From Corynebacterium gallinarum (GTDB lineage: Bacteria; Actinomycetota; Actinomycetes; Mycobacteriales; Mycobacteriaceae), in assembly GCF_014837045.1 (NCBI RefSeq), contig NZ_JACSPR010000004.1, positions 62,001-126,000 on the forward strand: a stretch of 64,000 nucleotides of DNA, given 5' to 3'. Of the stretch, positions 4,516-63,512 are shown in pieces. The notes below the pieces were generated by a model. The model was given only the letters and a program-made list of their open reading frames with translations, had not been told where the DNA came from and made no database searches. Position numbers and translations under genes: made by a program. How positions within the stretch are numbered: position 1 is the first letter of the stretch; each line of letters starts with the position of its first letter.

Positions 4516-5775
4516 ATGTTTGACCAGTCAGCAGATCAGATCGAAGAATCAGGGGCCGATGGGCCCGTCAACCAGCTTTATTATTACTCCGTCAACAATG
4601 TCGAGAGTCCCATGGCCGTGGCCGGCACTTCAATGCGGCGGGCCTGGCACCTGTACTGGGAGGAGCTCATACCGGAGGAAGACGCCGATCTGGAACTCGC
4701 GGTGGCTTCGCTGTCGATCGCCACCGGGGAAAGCCGTGGCAGAGTCCAATCACTGATCATGGCGTTCTACCAGCTCGCAGACCTTCCCCGCCTCCACATG
4801 ATCCAGCACCAGTTCTTCCACCTGGATCTGAACCGGCTGCTCGCGATCTCCACCGCGCTCGCCGGTCTGAACCCCGACCACCTGGCCACGGTGGATGAAC
4901 ACCTCACCGAATACCTCACGCCGTGTGCTCCCAATCAGATGCTCCCCTCCACCGGGGCGATCAAGCGGAAGATCGCGGCCATCAGAGACATGGTCGATGA
5001 TCCCCGGGCCACCGGCAGCAGATTGCGGAAGAACTTCAACGTCTCCGTCGGCACCGACGGGACCGCGGAAGTCCACGCGGAGGTCTCCCCCATGGATGCC
5101 CAGATGATTCAGGATGCGGTGACACAACACGCAGCCAACACCGGCAAGACAGAATCCGAGGCCCTGGTGGACCTGATCCGGGAACATATCAATCTCGATG
5201 TCACAGTGAACCTCTACACCGCGAGGGACCTCGCCGATGCCCCTGTGTGGTCAAGCAGCGTCGGTTGGCTGGATGCCTGCTCGGGAGTGGAATGGGTTGG
5301 TCTCGCCACCCGACTCCGGGATATGGATGAGGCGATGGGCAAACACGCCTCCGGCCACGACCCAACCCCGGACATCGCTGCGGCACTGACCGGACGGGAT
5401 GGCACCTGCGGTTTCCCGGGCTGCAACGTCAGGGCAGAGCATTGCGACTGCGACCACCGCGTCAACCACGCTGACGGTGGTGCAACATGCCGACACAACT
5501 GCAAGCGGCTGTGCAGGCACCATCACAACCCCAAGACCAACGGCCGGATCGTTTACCTCATGGATCCGGTCAGCGGAATCACAGTGTGGGTGCTGGAGGA
5601 CGGATCCTGGGCGGTGGATGTTCCGGAAGGGCCACTGACCCCGGCGAGCGCCAGGTGGGCGCAGACCGTCTCCCAGTACCGCACCGCGCACCGTAAGCGC
5701 TGGGCGGCTGAGGCTAGAGCTGAGGCCAGGGCGGAAGCAACCGCTGAGCCCCAGCCGGACGAGCCACCGTTCTAG
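4516..5775 (+). CDS. DUF222 / 13E12-repeat family protein with C-terminal HNH nuclease domain
   Basis: A protein of 419 residues. The first two thirds match the alpha-helical DUF222 region found in mycobacterial 13E12 repeat proteins. The C-terminal region about 290-345 is an HNH nuclease fold: a CGFPGC zinc knuckle, then CDCDHRVNHADGG, then LCRHHHNPKTNG. Such proteins occur in multiple copies in many actinobacteria and are suspected mobile or nuclease elements, but their function is unsettled. The tail is rich in Glu and Ala. The stop overlaps the ddh stop by four bases tail to tail. The ATG at 4516 lies just after a GGGGGTGACACC stretch. Confidence 0.85.
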   Translation: MFDQSADQIEESGADGPVNQLYYYSVNNVESPMAVAGTSMRRAWHLYWEELIPEEDADLELAVASLSIATGESRGRVQSLIMAFYQLADLPRLHMIQHQFFHLDLNRLLAISTALAGLNPDHLATVDEHLTEYLTPCAPNQMLPSTGAIKRKIAAIRDMVDDPRATGSRLRKNFNVSVGTDGTAEVHAEVSPMDAQMIQDAVTQHAANTGKTESEALVDLIREHINLDVTVNLYTARDLADAPVWSSSVGWLDACSGVEWVGLATRLRDMDEAMGKHASGHDPTPDIAAALTGRDGTCGFPGCNVRAEHCDCDHRVNHADGGATCRHNCKRLCRHHHNPKTNGRIVYLMDPVSGITVWVLEDGSWAVDVPEGPLTPASARWAQTVSQYRTAHRKRWAAEARAEARAEATAEPQPDEPPF

Positions 5776-6734
5776 ACGTCGCGGGCGATCAGATCGTCGA
5801 GTGGCGTCGGGGACAGGAGGTAGGGAGCGACCTCGAGAACAGTGAACGCACCGGTCTGACCGGCCTCTTTCAGACGGTAGGCGGCACGGCCGAATGCGAT
5901 CTGGGAGGAGGCGGTGAAGTCGGGGTTGCGGTCCAGCTTCAGGGTGTACTCCACGGTGTGGTGGAAACCGCCGGTGTCACCGGTGGTGATCACGTGACCG
6001 CCGTGGGGCATTCCGGTGTGCTCGGAATCGAAGGTGGCCTCATCGATGAAGTTGACCTCCACCTCATAACCGACGAAGTAGTCGGCCATGGTGCGGATCT
6101 CATTCTCGATGCGCTCATGCTCGGACTCCGGGGCCACCACGAAACACTGACGCTTGTGGGTCTGCTTACCGGTCAGTCCCCCGGCCTCACCCCGGCGTGC
6201 CTTTTCCAGGGCCTCCTCGGAGGGAAGGGTGTACTGGACGGCCTTCTGAACGCCGTCGATGCGTCGCAAGGCATCGGAGTGGCCCTGGGACAGACCCGGT
6301 CCCCAGAAGGTGTGCTGCTGGCGATCGGCGAGCAGGGCGGCACCGTACACGCGGTTGATGGAGAACATGCCCGGATCCCAGCCGGTGGCGACGACAGCGA
6401 CGTTGCCGGCGGCACGGGCGGCCTCATCCATCACCTGGCGGTGGCGCGGAATGTCCCGGTGGTTGTCGTAGGTGTCCACGGTGCAGGCGAACGCCGCGAA
6501 CCCCGGGGCCTGCTCCGGGATGTCGGTGGCGGAACCCATGCAGAGGAAGAGGAGATCAACATCATCGGTGTGCTTCTCCACCTCGGCGACGTTGAACACA
6601 GGGGTGTCGGTGTCCAGGGTGTCACGCCGGGAGAAGATGCCCACCAGCTCCATGTCCGGTTGCTGAGTGATGAGCTTCTCGACGCTCTTCCCAAGATTTC
6701 CATAACCAACGATTGCTGCGCGGATCTTCGTCAT
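5772..6734 (-). CDS. ddh: meso-diaminopimelate D-dehydrogenase
   Basis: A protein of 320 residues, the usual size for Ddh (EC 1.4.1.16). It makes meso-diaminopimelate from tetrahydrodipicolinate, ammonia and NADPH in one step, feeding lysine and peptidoglycan synthesis. The N-terminal Rossmann motif GYGNLGKS follows MTKIRAAIV, and the sequence closely resembles C. glutamicum Ddh throughout (for example FSRRDTLDTDTPVF and WDPGMFS). This one-step route is uncommon in bacteria and is diagnostic for corynebacteria. The gene is monocistronic, tail to tail with the HNH gene and head to head with the esterase gene. Confidence 0.95.
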   Translation of the reverse strand: MTKIRAAIVGYGNLGKSVEKLITQQPDMELVGIFSRRDTLDTDTPVFNVAEVEKHTDDVDLLFLCMGSATDIPEQAPGFAAFACTVDTYDNHRDIPRHRQVMDEAARAAGNVAVVATGWDPGMFSINRVYGAALLADRQQHTFWGPGLSQGHSDALRRIDGVQKAVQYTLPSEEALEKARRGEAGGLTGKQTHKRQCFVVAPESEHERIENEIRTMADYFVGYEVEVNFIDEATFDSEHTGMPHGGHVITTGDTGGFHHTVEYTLKLDRNPDFTASSQIAFGRAAYRLKEAGQTGAFTVLEVAPYLLSPTPLDDLIARDV

Positions 6735-6800
6735 TTCCTATCCTCCAGGATGATGGTGGCAAGTTTCTCCACCGAGCATACTGCCGTGCATACTGGTGTC

Positions 6801-7610
6801 ATGATCAGGGGATCTTTGGAACACCAGGGCCACGAACGCACCTTCACCATCATTGAGCCGGAACAACCCTCCGGTGTCCTCCTGGTGTTCTTCCATGGAT
6901 CGCAGCAATCCGGAACCGTCACCAGGAAGTTCACCAACTTCACCTTCGATGAACTGACGGACCGGGGATGCGTGGTGGTCTACCCCGACGGGGTTGAGCA
7001 GCATTTCAACGATGCCCGCATCGGCCTGGATGAAAAGACCCGGCACATGGACATCGATGATGTCGGTTTCTTCATCAAACTGGTGGAATACATGCACCGG
7101 CACCACGACATCACCCGGGTATTCGTCGCTGGCTACTCCAACGGCGGACAGATGGTCATGCGTCTCATGCACGAGGTGCCGAAGATGTTGTCAGGTGCGG
7201 CCACCGTGGCGGCGAACATGCCGGTCCCGGACAACACGCTTCCGGAGGTGCTCCTCCACAAGCCGCATCCCGTGCCCTATCTGGCCATGGCTGGCACGGC
7301 GGACCCCTTCTCGCCCTACTCCGGCGGGGATGCGGGCATCGGTGCCAGCCACCGACGTGGCCACGGCATGTCCGCCCATGACTCGGCAGCGTATTTCGCC
7401 GGGCGCAATGGACTGACGGAATCGACGAAGAACCGGCGCGCGGCGAACATCGTCATCGACCGGTGGGACGGTGACGCGCCCGTGGAGCTGTGGACGCTCA
7501 TCGGCGTGGGCCATCTGGTGCCGAGCAACAAGAACTACCCGGATTTCCTTGGGCCCTCCACCGATGAGCTGGTCGCCGCGGAGGTCATCGCCGATTTCTT
7601 CGGCCTTTAA
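6801..7610 (+). CDS. LpqC/feruloyl-esterase-like alpha/beta hydrolase
   Basis: A cytoplasmic-looking protein of 269 residues with an alpha/beta hydrolase core. It has LVFFHGSQQSG (oxyanion region), YPDG, and the nucleophile elbow G-Y-S-N-G-G, as in the polyhydroxybutyrate depolymerase/feruloyl esterase group (COG3509). A likely acid is in the AGTADPFSPYSGG region and the catalytic His in GVGHLVPS. No signal peptide is seen, unlike secreted LpqC. The frame is open far upstream across ddh, but that is antisense. I chose the ATG at 6801, which lies 6 bases after a CATACT box, although the ATG at 6750 is possible. The 3' end overlaps the HAD gene by four bases. Confidence 0.75.
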   Translation: MIRGSLEHQGHERTFTIIEPEQPSGVLLVFFHGSQQSGTVTRKFTNFTFDELTDRGCVVVYPDGVEQHFNDARIGLDEKTRHMDIDDVGFFIKLVEYMHRHHDITRVFVAGYSNGGQMVMRLMHEVPKMLSGAATVAANMPVPDNTLPEVLLHKPHPVPYLAMAGTADPFSPYSGGDAGIGASHRRGHGMSAHDSAAYFAGRNGLTESTKNRRAANIVIDRWDGDAPVELWTLIGVGHLVPSNKNYPDFLGPSTDELVAAEVIADFFGL

Positions 7611-30821: not shown

Positions 30822-31703
30822 ATGTCACATAACACTCTCCAGTCCTCCATCCTCCAGTGGTTCCGCCTCAACGCCCGCGACCTGGCGTGGCGCGATCCCG
30901 ACACCTCTGCCTGGGGAATCCTGCTCTCCGAGGTGATGAGCCAACAGACTCCGGTGGCCCGCGTCGAACCGATCTGGCTGAAGTGGATGGCCACCTGGCC
31001 CACCCCGCAGGCGTTTGCGGAGGCCTCCCCCGATGAGGTGCTGCGCGCCTGGGGAAAGCTGGGGTATCCGCGTCGGGCCCTGCGGTTGCTGGAGTGTGCG
31101 AGGGTGATCGTCGACAAGCATGGTGGCCGGGTACCGGACACCGTCGACGAACTGCTCGCCCTGCCCTGCATCGGCGACTACACCGCGCGCGCCGTGGCCG
31201 CGTTCGCGTTCGGGCGAAACGTACCGGTCGTGGACACCAACGTGCGCCGCGTGTACCGACGCGCCGTCGAGGGCCGCTTCCTGCAGGGAACCGCCTCCAA
31301 AAAGGAGCTTGTCGACGTCGCCGCCATTCTCCCCGCTGCCTCCGGCCCCGAATTCTCCGCCGGGATCATGGAACTGGGCGCACTGATCTGCACCGCCACG
31401 TCACCGAAATGTGCTTCGTGCCCACTGTTGGAACTGTGCGAATGGCAACGCCTGGGATGCCCCGCCCCCTCCGAGGAGGAACTCGCCTCCGCGAAGAAAC
31501 GCGTGCAGAAATTCGCCGGCACCGACCGGCAGGTCCGCGGCCTGATCATGGATGTGCTGCGCGGGGCGGACGCACCCGTGGCGAAATCAGCCATCGACGT
31601 GGTCTGGCCCGACGAGGCACAACGCTCCCGGGCACTGTTCTCCCTGTTATCCGATGGCCTGGCCGAGCAGGATGCCGACGGGAACTTCCACCTGCCTCGT
31701 TAA
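30822..31703 (+). CDS. mutY: A/G-specific adenine DNA glycosylase MutY
   Basis: A protein of 293 residues. It removes adenine mispaired with 8-oxoguanine. The catalytic Glu is in SEVMSQQT, the helix-hairpin-helix is LPCIGDYTARAVAAFAFG with catalytic Asp in VVDTNVRRV, and four cysteines (C-TATSPK-C-AS-C-PLLEL-C) hold the 4Fe-4S cluster. It lacks the long C-terminal NUDIX-like domain of E. coli MutY (350 residues), as is usual in actinobacteria. The TAA stop is inside the TTAA edge of a palindromic repeat. Confidence 0.95.
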   Translation: MSHNTLQSSILQWFRLNARDLAWRDPDTSAWGILLSEVMSQQTPVARVEPIWLKWMATWPTPQAFAEASPDEVLRAWGKLGYPRRALRLLECARVIVDKHGGRVPDTVDELLALPCIGDYTARAVAAFAFGRNVPVVDTNVRRVYRRAVEGRFLQGTASKKELVDVAAILPAASGPEFSAGIMELGALICTATSPKCASCPLLELCEWQRLGCPAPSEEELASAKKRVQKFAGTDRQVRGLIMDVLRGADAPVAKSAIDVVWPDEAQRSRALFSLLSDGLAEQDADGNFHLPR

Positions 31704-31784
31704 CCCCGAGATCCTGTTTCCAGAGACCGCAATACTTAACCCAGAGATCACTGGTGGTTTCTGGAGACAGGATCTCTGGGTTAA
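31700..31784 (-). repeat. 85-bp TTAA-bounded palindromic repeat, copy 1
   Basis: The ends are TTAACCCCGAGATCC...GGATCTCTGGGTTAA, a near-perfect inverted repeat of about 25 bases per arm. A third half-site TTAACCCAGAGATC lies inside at 31736-31749. It sits between the convergent mutY and butA genes, and its first TTAA contains the mutY stop codon. Orientation is called minus, relative to copies 3 and 4. Confidence 0.9.
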
Positions 31785-31795
31785 GGTTCGGCGGT

Positions 31796-46839: not shown

Positions 46840-46923
46840 TTAACCCAGAAATCCTAACCCAGAAAGGACAGAAGTTAACCCAGAGATCACTACTGCTTTC
46901 TGGAAACAGGATCTCTGGGTTAA
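46840..46923 (-). repeat. 84-bp TTAA-bounded palindromic repeat, copy 2
   Basis: The ends are TTAACCCAGAAATCC...GGATCTCTGGGTTAA. The left arm is the most diverged of the four copies (it contains an extra AACCCAGAA). The internal half-site TTAACCCAGAGATC begins at 46875. It lies between the lysS 3' end and the 5' side of the AbiEi-like gene, in the same orientation as copy 1. Confidence 0.85.
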
Positions 46924-46950
46924 TGGGGAAAGGGATGGGGGCGGGGAAAT

Positions 46951-59645: not shown

Positions 59646-59660
59646 TTCCCGGCCCCATGC

Positions 59661-59745
59661 TTAACCCCGAGATCCTGTCTCCAGAAAGCACCAGTGATCT
59701 CTGGGTTAACCATCGTGGTTTCTGGGGACAGGATCTCTGGGTTAA
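59661..59745 (+). repeat. 85-bp TTAA-bounded palindromic repeat, copy 3
   Basis: The ends are TTAACCCCGAGATCC...GGATCTCTGGGTTAA, with an internal half-site GATCTCTGGGTTAA ending at 59709, so the inner arm points the opposite way from copies 1 and 2. It lies between the convergent ppa and spermidine-synthase-like genes, 64 bases after the ppa stop. Confidence 0.9.
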
Positions 59746-59761
59746 GTGGAGGAGAGCCTGG

Positions 59762-61321
59762 TTACTCCCCGGCCTGGCGGTAGCCGCGCCGCAGGTCCTC
59801 CACCACGCGGGGATGGTCCAGGGTGGAGGGCTCTAACTCCCGGGGTTGGTTGTCGGCACCGAACACGCCCGCCGCCGCCAGGACCTCCTCGGTGAGAAAG
59901 CGCAGCGGTGGTGCGTCGTCACGCAAGACCAGCTCCGTCCCCACCGGCCCGCACAGCTGGAACCCCCAGTCTCCGAAGGTGGGCACATGCACGTGGTACG
60001 GGATCACTGCCCCGCATCCGGCGGCGGACAGGGTGGAACCGATCCGCCAGAACACATCCGGGGTGGTGTACGCGCTGGAGGATTGCACCACCATGCGCCC
60101 GCCCTCGTTCAGTCGTGCCAGGGCGAGGGTGTAGAACTCCTGGGAGTACAGCCTGGCCATGGTGTCGTTGTTGGGGTCGGGGAGGTCCACGAAGATGGCG
60201 TCGTAACGCTGTCCCTCATCGCCGCCGGCGCGCAGCCAGGTGAAGGCATCGTCGGTGATGACCGTGACCCGTGGGTCCTGCATGGCGCCACCGTTATCGG
60301 ACAGCAGGATGGTGTTGGCCACCTCGATCACCTCGGGGTCCAGTTCCACCTGGGTGATCCGCATGTCGGGGAAGCGCAGCAGTTCCCGGGCCGCCAGGCC
60401 GTCGCCACCACCGATGATCAGGGCTGAGCGCGCGGAATCCGACAGGCCGGGGTACACCAGGGATTCGGTGTAGCGGTGTTCATCGCGGGTGGAGTACTGC
60501 AGCCCGCCGTTGAGGTAGAGGCGTCGGTCGGCACCGCGCTGGGTGACCACGATGTCCTGGTAGTCGGACTGGTGGGCGTAGATCACCGGGTCCGTATAGA
60601 GCTGCTGGCGGGCGGTGGCGACGATGCCGTCGGAACGCACCAGCACCGTGCCCAGCACCGCGATGGCCACCAGCAGGGCCACCACCGCGCTGATGAACTG
60701 GGGGCGCGGCAGCAGGTGTCGCAGCAGCACACAGCCCACGAACAGGGCGGCCAGCAGGTTGATCATGCCGGCGGCCGCCGCGCCCCGCATCATGCCCAGC
60801 CACGGCAGGAGGATGAACGGCCAGGCCAGTCCGCCGAGCAGGGCACCGAGGTAGTCGGCGGCGTTGAGGGTGGCCACGAGTGAGCCGGTGGTGCGGGCGT
60901 CGGCAAGCCGGCCGCGCTGGATCATGGTCATCAGCAGCGGTAGTTCCGCACCGACCAGGATGCCGATCAGCGCCGTGGCCAGCACCAGCATCCACAGGTT
61001 CTGGCCGACCACCGCGAAGGTCATGTACAGCGCCAGCGCGGACAGGCCACCGATCAGTCCCAGCAGGGTCTCCACCGCCAGGAAGGTCTGCGCCGGCCAC
61101 CGCAGGAACGGTTTGACCAGGATCGCGCCCACGCCGAGGGCAGCCACGTAACCTGCGACGATCAGGGAGGTTTCAACAATGCCGCCGCCGTTCAGGCTCG
61201 CGGACAGTGACACCAGCGCCAGCTCATACACCAGTCCCGAGGCCGCGCAGATCGCGACGGAAACCAGCAGCAGCCAGCGCCAGACCCGGGTTAATTCAAC
61301 GGGTTGTTCTAGACCAGACAT
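59762..61321 (-). CDS. Membrane spermidine synthase-like (polyamine aminopropyltransferase) protein
   Basis: A protein of 519 residues. The N-terminal half has about seven hydrophobic helices (to about residue 230). The C-terminal half is a spermidine-synthase fold: SAM-binding IIGGGDGLAARELLRF, then VELDPEVIEVA, and the catalytic Asp region in IFVDLPDPNND. It transfers an aminopropyl group from decarboxylated SAM to an amine, or acts on another substrate, as in actinobacterial membrane homologues. It is the last gene of the DUF4178-DUF350 operon and overlaps the DUF350 gene by 13 bases. Confidence 0.88.
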   Translation of the reverse strand: MSGLEQPVELTRVWRWLLLVSVAICAASGLVYELALVSLSASLNGGGIVETSLIVAGYVAALGVGAILVKPFLRWPAQTFLAVETLLGLIGGLSALALYMTFAVVGQNLWMLVLATALIGILVGAELPLLMTMIQRGRLADARTTGSLVATLNAADYLGALLGGLAWPFILLPWLGMMRGAAAAGMINLLAALFVGCVLLRHLLPRPQFISAVVALLVAIAVLGTVLVRSDGIVATARQQLYTDPVIYAHQSDYQDIVVTQRGADRRLYLNGGLQYSTRDEHRYTESLVYPGLSDSARSALIIGGGDGLAARELLRFPDMRITQVELDPEVIEVANTILLSDNGGAMQDPRVTVITDDAFTWLRAGGDEGQRYDAIFVDLPDPNNDTMARLYSQEFYTLALARLNEGGRMVVQSSSAYTTPDVFWRIGSTLSAAGCGAVIPYHVHVPTFGDWGFQLCGPVGTELVLRDDAPPLRFLTEEVLAAAGVFGADNQPRELEPSTLDHPRVVEDLRRGYRQAGE

Positions 61322-61734
61322 GCAGCGTTGACGGCTCCCACCACCACGAGAATCACGGCAGCCACCACTGCGCCGGAGCGCAGTTTCGGATCCTCCACCA
61401 GGTCACGGAACCTGCCCGGGATGAACACCTCCAACAGGGCCATGACGATCACCTGGATCACCAGGCCGAGGGCACCGAACACCGCGGTCTCGATCAGTCC
61501 CTGCGTCAGGTTGTCCGACGAGGTCAGCACCGCGGTGACCACAATGATGCCGATGGACACCTGCTGCGCCACGGTGATCACCGCGGCATTGGGCAGGTGG
61601 TGCACGAAGACGAGCTCATGCAGCTTGCCCGGGGTGATCAGGTCGAGGATGACGAACCCGACCACCAGGATCACGGCGGCGAGAACAAAGTAGGCGAGGG
61701 TGCCCGCGACACCGTTGATCAGGTACTCACTCAT
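61309..61734 (-). CDS. DUF350 family membrane protein
   Basis: A protein of 141 residues with four hydrophobic helices (near 5-30, 45-65, 70-95 and 110-135), typical of DUF350 (YjfL-like). Family members are tied by gene context to envelope stress and polyamine or ATP-grasp modules. ATG at 61734 has AGGAG 8 bases upstream. It lies 18 bases after the DUF4247 gene. Confidence 0.85.
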   Translation of the reverse strand: MSEYLINGVAGTLAYFVLAAVILVVGFVILDLITPGKLHELVFVHHLPNAAVITVAQQVSIGIIVVTAVLTSSDNLTQGLIETAVFGALGLVIQVIVMALLEVFIPGRFRDLVEDPKLRSGAVVAAVILVVVGAVNAACLV

Positions 61735-61751
61735 GGTTTCCACTCCTGTTG

Positions 61752-62153
61752 TTATTTCACGCCGCCGCCGGATCCGGATGATCCGCCGCTGGAATTACTG
61801 GGGGCTGAGGGGACGAATCCGGGGCCGAGCCAGATGAAGGCGCCACTGTTGACGCGGTCGAGTCCCTCCACGGTGATCCGGCAGTCGGGGGTGCCCTCGC
61901 CGGAGATGATCACCAGTTTCTTCGGGTACCGCAGGTAGGTGTCGCCGGTGGCCGGGTCGGTGGCGCGTTCGCTGGGGCGTTCCATCGCCACGATGCGGTC
62001 GGCCACACCGGTCTCGCCGGCACAGCTGCCGTTCGACCAGCTCTGCGCGATGCGGTTTTCCACCGGCGGTTTGCTCACCAGTGCCATGATCAGGCACAGC
62101 ACCGCGAGGAACAGGAGGATGATGCCCAGTGTCCTGGCTGTTTTAGCGCTCAT
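61752..62153 (-). CDS. DUF4247 family membrane-anchored protein
   Basis: A protein of 133 residues. One N-terminal helix (about 8-28) is followed by an external domain with two cysteines (GSCAGETG and DCRIT), probably a disulfide, and a Ser/Gly tail. This matches the DUF4247 family that travels with DUF350 and spermidine synthase. ATG at 62153 overlaps the preceding stop by four bases. Confidence 0.8.
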   Translation of the reverse strand: MSAKTARTLGIILLFLAVLCLIMALVSKPPVENRIAQSWSNGSCAGETGVADRIVAMERPSERATDPATGDTYLRYPKKLVIISGEGTPDCRITVEGLDRVNSGAFIWLGPGFVPSAPSNSSGGSSGSGGGVK

Positions 62154-62635
62154 GGGTGGTACTGACTCCTTGTGCTGACAATGGTGTTCTCCCCCGGGTA
62201 CAGGTGGTGTGTCCACCAGTGCCATACCCCGTCCACGCATGCTCCGCGCAGCGCGGTCAGATGATACTCGCCCTCCCCGGGGAAGCTGGCGATCAACCCG
62301 CCACCGTCCGCGATGTCGGCGGCTTCGGCAGCGAATTCGGCGGGGCTCAGAGTCCGGGTGCGGGTCTCCAGGCGGTACCCCTGCTTATCGACGGCCCCCG
62401 GCAGCGGCCACTCACCCCCCTCACGGGCGTTGCACGAGATCTCCTCCCGGAAGTGCCCGGAGGGCGCTTCCACGGTGACCACATGCGAACCCCCGATCAC
62501 CACCAGGTGCAGTGAGGAGTGGGTGGCCGGGTCGTCGATAAGCATCTCGGCGAGGATCTCCGGCATGGGTGCGTTCCAGCGCACACCGAGGTCAGCGGCG
62601 CGGATATCTGCGGGGGCGCAGGCCAGGTGCAACAT
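62150..62635 (-). CDS. DUF2617 family protein
   Basis: A protein of 161 residues, soluble. It has the DUF2617 pattern: IGGSHVVTV, a YRLETRTRTLSPAEF segment, then LIASFPGEGEYHLTALRG and a final WHWWTHHLYP motif. It is encoded between DUF4178 and DUF4247, a conserved actinobacterial order. Biochemical role unknown. It overlaps both neighbours by one to four bases. Confidence 0.8.
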   Translation of the reverse strand: MLHLACAPADIRAADLGVRWNAPMPEILAEMLIDDPATHSSLHLVVIGGSHVVTVEAPSGHFREEISCNAREGGEWPLPGAVDKQGYRLETRTRTLSPAEFAAEAADIADGGGLIASFPGEGEYHLTALRGACVDGVWHWWTHHLYPGENTIVSTRSQYHP

Positions 62636-63240
62636 CAGTTTCGCGGCGCCGGGTAGACAGTCAGTTCACCGGGCAGCACTGTCCAGCCCAGGGAGGCCTC
62701 CAGGGAACCGTCCTCGCCGAAGCGCTCGAAGCCCAGCAGCCGCTTGCCGCCGGCCTCGGCCATGTCCCAGTATTCGAAGCGGCCACTCTCCGGCAGTCCG
62801 GTGGTGCCCTCGGAGTAGAACTGACCCACGCCACTTTCCACCTTGCGGTAGCGCACACCCTCGACGGTGACCTCATTCGCCGGCTGCGCATCCAGGTCCG
62901 GGCGCGAGATCCACCAGCTGAGGTTGAGCTGGCCCTCGTCATAGTCCACGCTCAGGTACTCGCCACCCTTGCCGCCTTCCAGCAGGTACTCATACCAGGT
63001 GTAGGCGCCCTGGCGCATGGTCACGCCACCGCGGCACACATAGTCCACGCCCCCGTAACCGACGATCGCGCCGGGTCCGAGGATGTCAGGGCCGAAATCA
63101 GCCGAACCGTCACTGAACTTGAGGGGATCCTCCCGCGGACGTGGTGGCTGCTCGGCGTTCTTCTTCTTGGCCGAGACAATAAAGAAGACAACAGCGATGA
63201 CGGCGAGGATGATCGCCAGGACGAGCCAGGTGGTGTTCAT
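62635..63240 (-). CDS. DUF4178 family protein, head of the polyamine/DUF350 operon
   Basis: A protein of 201 residues. One N-terminal helix (about 5-23), a Lys/Pro-rich linker, then a beta-rich DUF4178 domain (LGPGAIVGYGGVDYVCRG, then WYEYLLEGGKGGEYLSVDYDEG and FEYWDMAEAGGKRLLGFERFGEDG). It probably faces the cytoplasm or the outside as a membrane-tethered module. It is the first gene of the five-gene operon; its promoter would lie between 63241 and 63344. Confidence 0.82.
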   Translation of the reverse strand: MNTTWLVLAIILAVIAVVFFIVSAKKKNAEQPPRPREDPLKFSDGSADFGPDILGPGAIVGYGGVDYVCRGGVTMRQGAYTWYEYLLEGGKGGEYLSVDYDEGQLNLSWWISRPDLDAQPANEVTVEGVRYRKVESGVGQFYSEGTTGLPESGRFEYWDMAEAGGKRLLGFERFGEDGSLEASLGWTVLPGELTVYPAPRN

Positions 63241-63343
63241 GGACGGTCTGCTCCCGGGGGTTTGGAAGGGTTGATGAGCAAAGGTTACACGTTTCGTCCC
63301 CGAAATATCAGGGGGCTTCCACCCGGAAACAGCCCGCAGATCC

Positions 63344-63428
63344 TTAACCCCGAGATCCTGTCTCCAGAGAGCACCAGTGATCTCAGGGTTAAGCACAGCG
63401 GTTTCTGGCAACAGGATCTCGGGGTTAA
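63344..63428 (+). repeat. 85-bp TTAA-bounded palindromic repeat, copy 4
   Basis: The ends are TTAACCCCGAGATCC...GGATCTCGGGGTTAA with an internal half-site GATCTCAGGGTTAA ending at 63392. It lies in the 272-base divergent region between the DUF4178 and rhodanese genes, in the same orientation as copy 3. Confidence 0.9.
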
Positions 63429-63512
63429 GGCGTTGGGGAATGTGGCCACCGGCGCACCGCGGCAATTACTCTGGAACGCACCCCTGAAATCACCACACCA
63501 AGGAGCAACACC

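Follow-up and report, generated by a model that had tools for sequence, protein, structure and literature searches.

A five-gene operon around a membrane aminopropyltransferase

The window analysed here is a 64,000-nucleotide stretch of Corynebacterium gallinarum (contig NZ_JACSPR010000004.1, positions 62,001 to 126,000), which contains a five-gene set on the minus strand. In the order of transcription, the set comprises DUF4178, DUF2617, DUF4247, DUF350 and a membrane spermidine-synthase fusion, hereafter the fusion, and all five genes exceed the curated cut-offs of Pfam. With the chosen starts, DUF4178 and DUF2617 overlap by 1 base, DUF2617 and DUF4247 by 4 bases, and DUF350 and the fusion by 13 bases, while 17 bases separate DUF4247 from DUF350. 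The tight packing described in a first-pass annotation of this DNA was confirmed, with coordinates, overlaps and gap agreeing within one base. The same annotation had described an operon built around a membrane aminopropyltransferase, and this holds as well, with the motifs of the donor site kept in the fusion.

The enzyme family of the fusion moves an aminopropyl group, which it takes from decarboxylated S-adenosylmethionine (dcAdoMet). Genes for the synthesis of this donor had been named in the first-pass annotation as something to look for in the genome. SpeD (PF02675) was not found in the window's genome, and the same profile matched 8 of the 14 control genomes. This SpeD-negative outcome led the follow-up to DUF2617. 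Judging from genome context, predicted structures and sequence, we consider it probable that DUF2617 is a divergent, two-lobed pyruvoyl S-adenosylmethionine (AdoMet) decarboxylase (AdoMetDC) which supplies the fusion, and that an acceptor other than putrescine receives the aminopropyl group. The idea of an AdoMetDC arose from genome context, ahead of any fold search.

DUF2617 and SpeD across genomes

SpeD was absent from all 101 genomes of the genus. A near full-length fusion occurred in 18 of them (two more had weak matches only), and DUF2617 adjoined the fusion in each of the 18. Beyond the genus, a class sample of 296 genomes and a phylum sample of 291 genomes, partly overlapping the class sample, were searched. 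Within the class sample, the fusion exceeded the cut-off in 73 genomes, DUF2617 was present in 71 and both were present in 70, while any match to SpeD was seen in 12. The 73 class genomes hold 78 fusion genes over the cut-off, and 75 of these follow DUF2617 on the same strand at a distance of 150 to 1996 bases. With DUF2617 within 2 kb upstream of this many fusion genes, the five-gene grouping is not due to chance.

The three fusion genes without DUF2617 belong to genomes G131, G207 and G178. Their operons retain the row DUF4178, DUF4247, DUF350 and fusion, and SpeD is located elsewhere in the same genomes, with Ser, His and Cys all in place (L057 to L059). Downstream of the fusion in the operon of G178, a frame resembling an ion channel with a regulatory domain was recognised by eye (L069, approximately 5583 to 6848). 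The phylum sample added three genomes from outside the class (G507, G544 and G650), which carry the fusion and DUF2617 and are without SpeD. Over both samples, 73 of the 76 fusion genomes have DUF2617 and no canonical SpeD, and the remaining three have a canonical SpeD and no DUF2617.

Relatives of SpeD were found in five DUF2617 genomes, on a different contig or more than 1.4 Mb from the operon and never near it. All five are non-canonical: L060 to L062, which are Streptomyces-like, have no Cys, and in L063 and L064 a Ser replaces the processing His. These relatives may act on another substrate. Among the 14 control genomes, the fusion model matched 10 (over the cut-off in one), eight of which have SpeD and the other two DUF2617, namely C. 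glutamicum and Haloferax volcanii. In H. volcanii, DUF2617 was present together with a spermidine-synthase-like match, and a SpeD match was absent.

The pairing was followed further in named DUF2617 loci, taken as the best 80 of 581 ranked by similarity to a Nocardiopsis sequence. The fusion lies downstream of DUF2617 in 79 of these 80 loci, and none of them has a SpeD match in its flanks. DUF2617 and the fusion were the only members detected in 51 loci, mostly from Streptomyces, and a three-gene form consisting of DUF4178, DUF2617 and the fusion, with no DUF350 match, was seen in G023 (L104). The 79 loci together with the two-gene and three-gene forms mark DUF2617 as a near-constant partner of the fusion. 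DUF350 was considered as the core of the system, but this was rejected because DUF2617 and the fusion persist in the two-gene loci and in G023, where DUF350 gave no match.

Other phyla were represented by a plasmid set of 15 records matching the fusion, inspected with 8-kb flanks; two Microvirga matches cover the catalytic half only, and one Rhodovulum match is a fragment. SpeD lay within the flanks in 12 of the 15 (on the opposite strand in three Burkholderia) and DUF2617 in none. On plasmids of Novosphingobium and Alteromonas, a single gene row holds DUF4178, DUF350, the fusion and an annotated speD. The Rhodovulum record with the fusion fragment has neither SpeD nor DUF2617 in its flanks. 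DUF2617 was likewise not found elsewhere in plasmids, nor in viral contigs in a single scan with the window protein.

The distribution also bears on the substrate of the presumed decarboxylase. DUF2617 might combine an AdoMetDC fold and a pyruvoyl group with activity on ornithine, arginine or lysine, and would then make the acceptor and not the donor. SpeD homologues became ornithine or arginine decarboxylases several times, Actinomycetota included (excerpt of PMC10407285), and the SpeD relatives lacking Cys or His in the DUF2617 genomes point in the same direction. However, DUF2617 alternates with canonical SpeD, the maker of the donor, and a fusion with kept donor-site motifs would be left without a donor, which renders such a substrate switch unlikely.

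Predicted fold and candidate active site of DUF2617

The DUF2617 protein of the window was modelled with AlphaFold from 44 sequences, with a predicted local distance difference test score (pLDDT) of 91.3 and a predicted template modelling score (pTM) of 0.86. A second model, of a Nocardiopsis DUF2617 that is 33% identical to the window's, reached a pLDDT of 93.0. When 1000 Foldseek candidates for the window model were re-aligned with VIA-align, the human AdoMetDC proenzymes 1jl0 and 1msv ranked first and second (Z 8.2, 126 residues, 3.2 Å), with the next match at Z 5.1. For the Nocardiopsis model, 1msv came first (Z 7.7, 129 residues, 3.6 Å) and the next match followed at Z 4.9; other human, potato and trypanosome AdoMetDC chains appeared at Z 3.8 to 4.5. 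The predicted fold of DUF2617 agrees best with that of AdoMetDC, the first match of each model being about 3 Z units ahead. The identity to class 2 AdoMetDC amounts to 12 to 13% over 126 to 129 residues. In plain Foldseek, the Nocardiopsis model matched the SpeD of T. maritima (1vr7) at rank 38 (E 0.34, probability 0.51). The processed human chains start after the pyruvoyl residue 68, and their first aligned pair is 51-69 for the window model and 43-69 for the Nocardiopsis model, so that the invariant Ser (50 and 42, respectively) occupies the place of Ser68.

Conservation was followed in an alignment of 134 DUF2617 rows, i.e., 133 distinct sequences with the window's counted once more. Ser50, His51, Glu64, Pro119, Thr127, Trp140, His144, Tyr146 and Pro147 are invariant in all rows, and Phe118 and Cys68 are near-invariant (133 and 131 rows, respectively). 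The usually conserved Cys is replaced by Thr in L010 and L011 from the window's genus, and by Tyr in L075 (genome G228); in the latter, the adjoining fusion gene is broken into two frames, which would suit a joint decay of the two genes. The first half of DUF2617 contains GASH and then E-x3-C, where SpeD has SESH and then D-x3-C. The second half contains FPG, T and H-x-Y-P, where SpeD has F-x-P-x-G, T and H-T-[YW]-P.

In human AdoMetDC, Cys82 is the proton donor. Ser68 turns into the pyruvoyl group, Ser229 is required for activation and His243 for its second step, and in the T. maritima enzyme Ser55 or Glu62 may suffice (excerpt of PMC3975893). Phe7 and Phe223 of the human enzyme were compared from an excerpt of PMC5377238. 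In DUF2617, a Thr is invariant at a Ser229-like place. By motif and hhalign, His144 and Cys68 are candidate equivalents of the processing His and the proton-donor Cys. Comparison of the profiles of DUF2617 and SpeD with hhalign yielded p 0.0005 for the C-terminal half and p 0.0025 for the whole (p 0.0065 with shallower profiles). The whole-profile score of 23.1 was reached by none of 200 column shuffles, the highest of which scored 21.9.

AdoMet itself as the donor had been our first idea, and it was downgraded after the alternation of DUF2617 with SpeD and the AdoMetDC-like model had emerged. The fusion would then carry out an aminocarboxypropyl or methyl transfer, and DUF2617 would be a partner without catalytic activity that binds AdoMet or has a regulatory role, its fold resembling that of AdoMetDC. 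This would agree with a genome without a recognised dcAdoMet source and with the altered motifs in the two-gene fusions of Streptomyces described below. Inactive relatives of AdoMetDC are also known, and the T. brucei AdoMetDC/prozyme entries 5tvf and 5tvm are among the fold matches of DUF2617. However, a candidate pyruvoyl Ser and a candidate processing His kept in every row of the alignment, and a Cys kept in nearly every row, would be needless in a regulatory fold, and the donor-site motifs are common to fusions beside SpeD and beside DUF2617. Direct use of AdoMet is accordingly given little chance by us.

The fusion and its probable product

The window's fusion matched NCBIfam NF002956/PRK03612 over its full length (605 bits against a cut-off of 472, residues 8-516). 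Its catalytic domain covers approximately residues 240-460, and solved aminopropyltransferases align to residues 240-483. It carries the aminopropyltransferase motifs Q, D-E, GGGDG and D-x-x-D. Fusions beside DUF2617 and those beside SpeD have in common LQ, DE..Y.E, GGGDG, [VE][DE]LD, D-x-P-D and F-G-[DE]-W-G. The earlier motifs of this series also occur in solved aminopropyltransferases, whereas the final F-G-[DE]-W-G differs from E. coli SpeE; in the window, the region of residues 445-455 reads F-G-D-W-G-F. As far as a motif can indicate, this difference fits another acceptor.

An operon which simply makes spermidine, for the envelope or for the cell, would be compatible with DUF2617 as a decarboxylase. 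The NCBIfam label reads polyamine aminopropyltransferase, and the mycobacterial fusion gene is termed spermidine synthase (excerpt of PMC11841054). Nevertheless, spermidine as the end product seems rather unlikely to us, given the motifs around residues 445-455. In addition, fusions of a major facilitator superfamily domain with a spermidine synthase (MFS/SpdSyn) reportedly occur together with AdoMetDC and DUF350, and are said to be without spermidine synthase activity in the study of Li et al. from 2019. The product of the operon is probably aminopropylated and not spermidine.

In the two-gene fusions of Streptomyces that were looked at (L074, L082, L083 and L084), the donor-site Gln is replaced by Arg, and the Gln of the V-Q motif by His. 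The fusion of L084 (G189) has furthermore lost D-x-P-D, and its reaction may, by its motifs, have changed or decayed. PF01048 gave two matches in the window's genome; one resembles AMP nucleosidase by eye, and the other is at most a candidate for a methylthioadenosine role.

Proposed mechanism and weight of the evidence

If DUF2617 is the donor-making decarboxylase, its proenzyme would cut itself before the invariant Ser50, which would turn into the pyruvoyl group. The mature enzyme would decarboxylate AdoMet to dcAdoMet and hand it to the fusion, which would move the aminopropyl group to an acceptor, probably at the membrane, with release of methylthioadenosine. Cys68, Phe118, Thr127 and His144 are given putative roles by motif position. 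DUF350, DUF4247 and DUF4178 would be accessory envelope parts; the two-gene form frequent in Streptomyces does without them. With somewhat more reserve, we favour the view that DUF2617 represents a third, minimal class of AdoMetDC, a single chain of about 160 residues whose two SpeD-like lobes follow a class 2 layout, the second being degenerate. Such a class would be the missing dcAdoMet source of actinobacteria and, by the example of H. volcanii, of some haloarchaea, and would have replaced SpeD in the operon.

A number of points weigh against this assignment. The decarboxylase activity of DUF2617 is a prediction from context, models and sequence. G131 and G207 belong to one genus, so the three fusion genomes without DUF2617 count as two lineages, and the replacement pattern leans on few independent losses. 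At the level of single loci, G334 has DUF2617 beside a mere fusion fragment under the cut-off, the flanks of DUF2617 in L159 contain no fusion, and two Tritonibacter loci have the fusion with neither SpeD nor DUF2617 within 8 kb. Operons of this group are stated to encode an AdoMet decarboxylase in the excerpt of PMC11237479, and no SpeD was found near DUF2617.

Regarding the sequence, Cys68 is absent in 3 of the 134 rows, and where SpeD has a Glu before its pyruvoyl Ser, DUF2617 has Ala or Gly. The hhalign probabilities between DUF2617 and SpeD are low (6 to 32%). The N-terminal half gave no significant match to SpeD (p 0.34), although the best alignment still sets GASH on SESH. No alignment signal was obtained between the N-terminal and C-terminal halves, and an internal duplication is therefore suggested by the motif layout only. 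Even with E values of up to 10 allowed, PF02675 and PF01536 matched none of the 37 DUF2617 proteins scanned, and PF10936 was the only Pfam family found in more than one of them. As neither Pfam family of AdoMetDC matched, kinship is claimed only for the fold and the pyruvoyl-site serine. At the genome level, PF01536 matched none of 33 genomes, controls included; since it was silent even in the controls, this search is not informative. The DUF2617 profile had a single, irrelevant match among PDB sequences (E 0.83).

Regarding the structure, VIA-align itself notes that models lacking true relatives typically reach a best Z of 7 to 8. With neither model did plain Foldseek return a match at E <= 0.001, and AdoMetDC was not among the first 50 matches of the window model. 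The resemblance to AdoMetDC could hence be coincidental, DUF2617 being an unrelated beta-sandwich enzyme, as in the excerpt of PMC11237479, and the exclusion of SpeD being due to lineage. An unexceptional Z of about 8, Foldseek results without significance, a weak sequence signal and the missing Pfam link would all agree with this. However, an AdoMetDC had been predicted from context, and it then ranked first for each of the two models, the invariant Ser being correctly placed, so that we regard a coincidence as quite improbable.

Comparison with described systems

Operons with the fusion, DUF350 and DUF4178 were described in a comparison of phage shock protein (PSP) systems (Ravi et al. 2024, excerpt of PMC11237479), and the operon as such is therefore already known. 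The excerpt also bears out the contextual tie between DUF350, DUF4178 and envelope-stress genes in other bacteria, to which the first-pass annotation had referred. In one variant, DUF4247 and DUF2617 replace the chaperone-PspA pair, and DUF2617 is presented as a predicted beta-sandwich enzyme. As this variant is named, the actinobacterial forms cannot be called undescribed, contrary to what had been supposed at first; a reaction is not given in the excerpt, however. The window shares DUF350, DUF4178, DUF4247, DUF2617 and a spermidine-synthase-like protein with an N-terminal membrane domain with the variant in this excerpt. It differs in that its genome is without SpeD and that DUF2617 is proposed as the AdoMet decarboxylase. 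It may be, as initially suggested, that the operon attaches a polyamine to a component of the envelope; what the enzyme family transfers is an aminopropyl group.

The fusions of Li et al. 2019 are reportedly of the same transferase type and have DUF350 as a partner as well; theirs reportedly come with SpeD or a class 2 enzyme, whereas here DUF2617 would be the decarboxylase. Class 1 SpeD (PF02675) resembles DUF2617 in the S-H pair, [DE]-x3-C, F/P followed by T, H-x-[YW]-P or H-T-[YW]-P, and the genomic partner, but in DUF2617 the motifs are spread across two halves of one chain. With the eukaryotic class 2 AdoMetDC (PF01536), DUF2617 has in common a candidate pyruvoyl Ser in the first lobe and none in the second (class 2 layout after the excerpt of PMC10407285), but it measures about 160 residues against 334. 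A link between DUF2617 and AdoMet decarboxylase was not found in the literature searched, a limited paper collection. The new element appears to be the proposed identity of DUF2617, not the operon.

Gene calls and surroundings

The coordinates of the five genes and of a repeat that flanks them are collected in Table 1.

Table 1. Operon genes, candidate site residues and repeat positions in the window
Feature	Position	Strand	Evidence and remarks
DUF4178 gene, first of the operon	62635-63240	-	PF13785, 123 bits, E 1.1e-35; one N-terminal membrane segment (by eye)
DUF2617 gene, proposed pyruvoyl AdoMet decarboxylase	62150-62635	-	PF10936, 167 bits, E 5.3e-49
DUF2617 candidate site residues (window numbering): pyruvoyl Ser50, Cys68, Thr127, His144			Model, fold match, conservation, context
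DUF4247 gene	61752-62153	-	PF14042, 53 bits, E 5.1e-14; one N-terminal membrane or secretion segment (by eye)
DUF350 gene, small membrane protein	61309-61734	-	PF03994, 79 bits, E 5e-22
Membrane spermidine-synthase fusion (aminopropyltransferase)	59762-61321	-	PF01564, 101 bits, residues 281-454
Palindromic repeat	31699-31785, 46907-46924, 59660-59746, 63342-63430		

The list of open reading frames offers alternative starts: for DUF350 a GTG that lies 9 bases further upstream, and for DUF4178 and DUF4247 frames that extend further in the upstream direction. The DUF4178 frame stays open upstream to a TTG at 63465 and would run through the palindromic repeat; translation more probably starts at the ATG at 63240. 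The operon lies between a rhodanese-like protein and, at its other end, an S13 peptidase together with an inorganic pyrophosphatase. The palindromic repeat is intergenic, approximately 87 bases long and present on both sides of the operon, with arms of 27 to 32 bases that are 91 to 93% complementary. Seven of its half-sites were found in the window, with 0.03 expected.

Significance

Many actinobacteria carry a "spermidine synthase" without a recognised donor-making enzyme, and their polyamine annotation is inconsistent. If true, DUF2617 as the donor enzyme would explain those fusion-bearing actinobacteria in which no donor gene is recognised. A family of unknown function would gain a chemistry, and the donor side of membrane aminopropylation would become testable with one gene. 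The search for the aminopropylated product would be narrowed, and a prokaryotic two-lobed AdoMetDC would bear on the origin of the eukaryotic class 2 enzyme.

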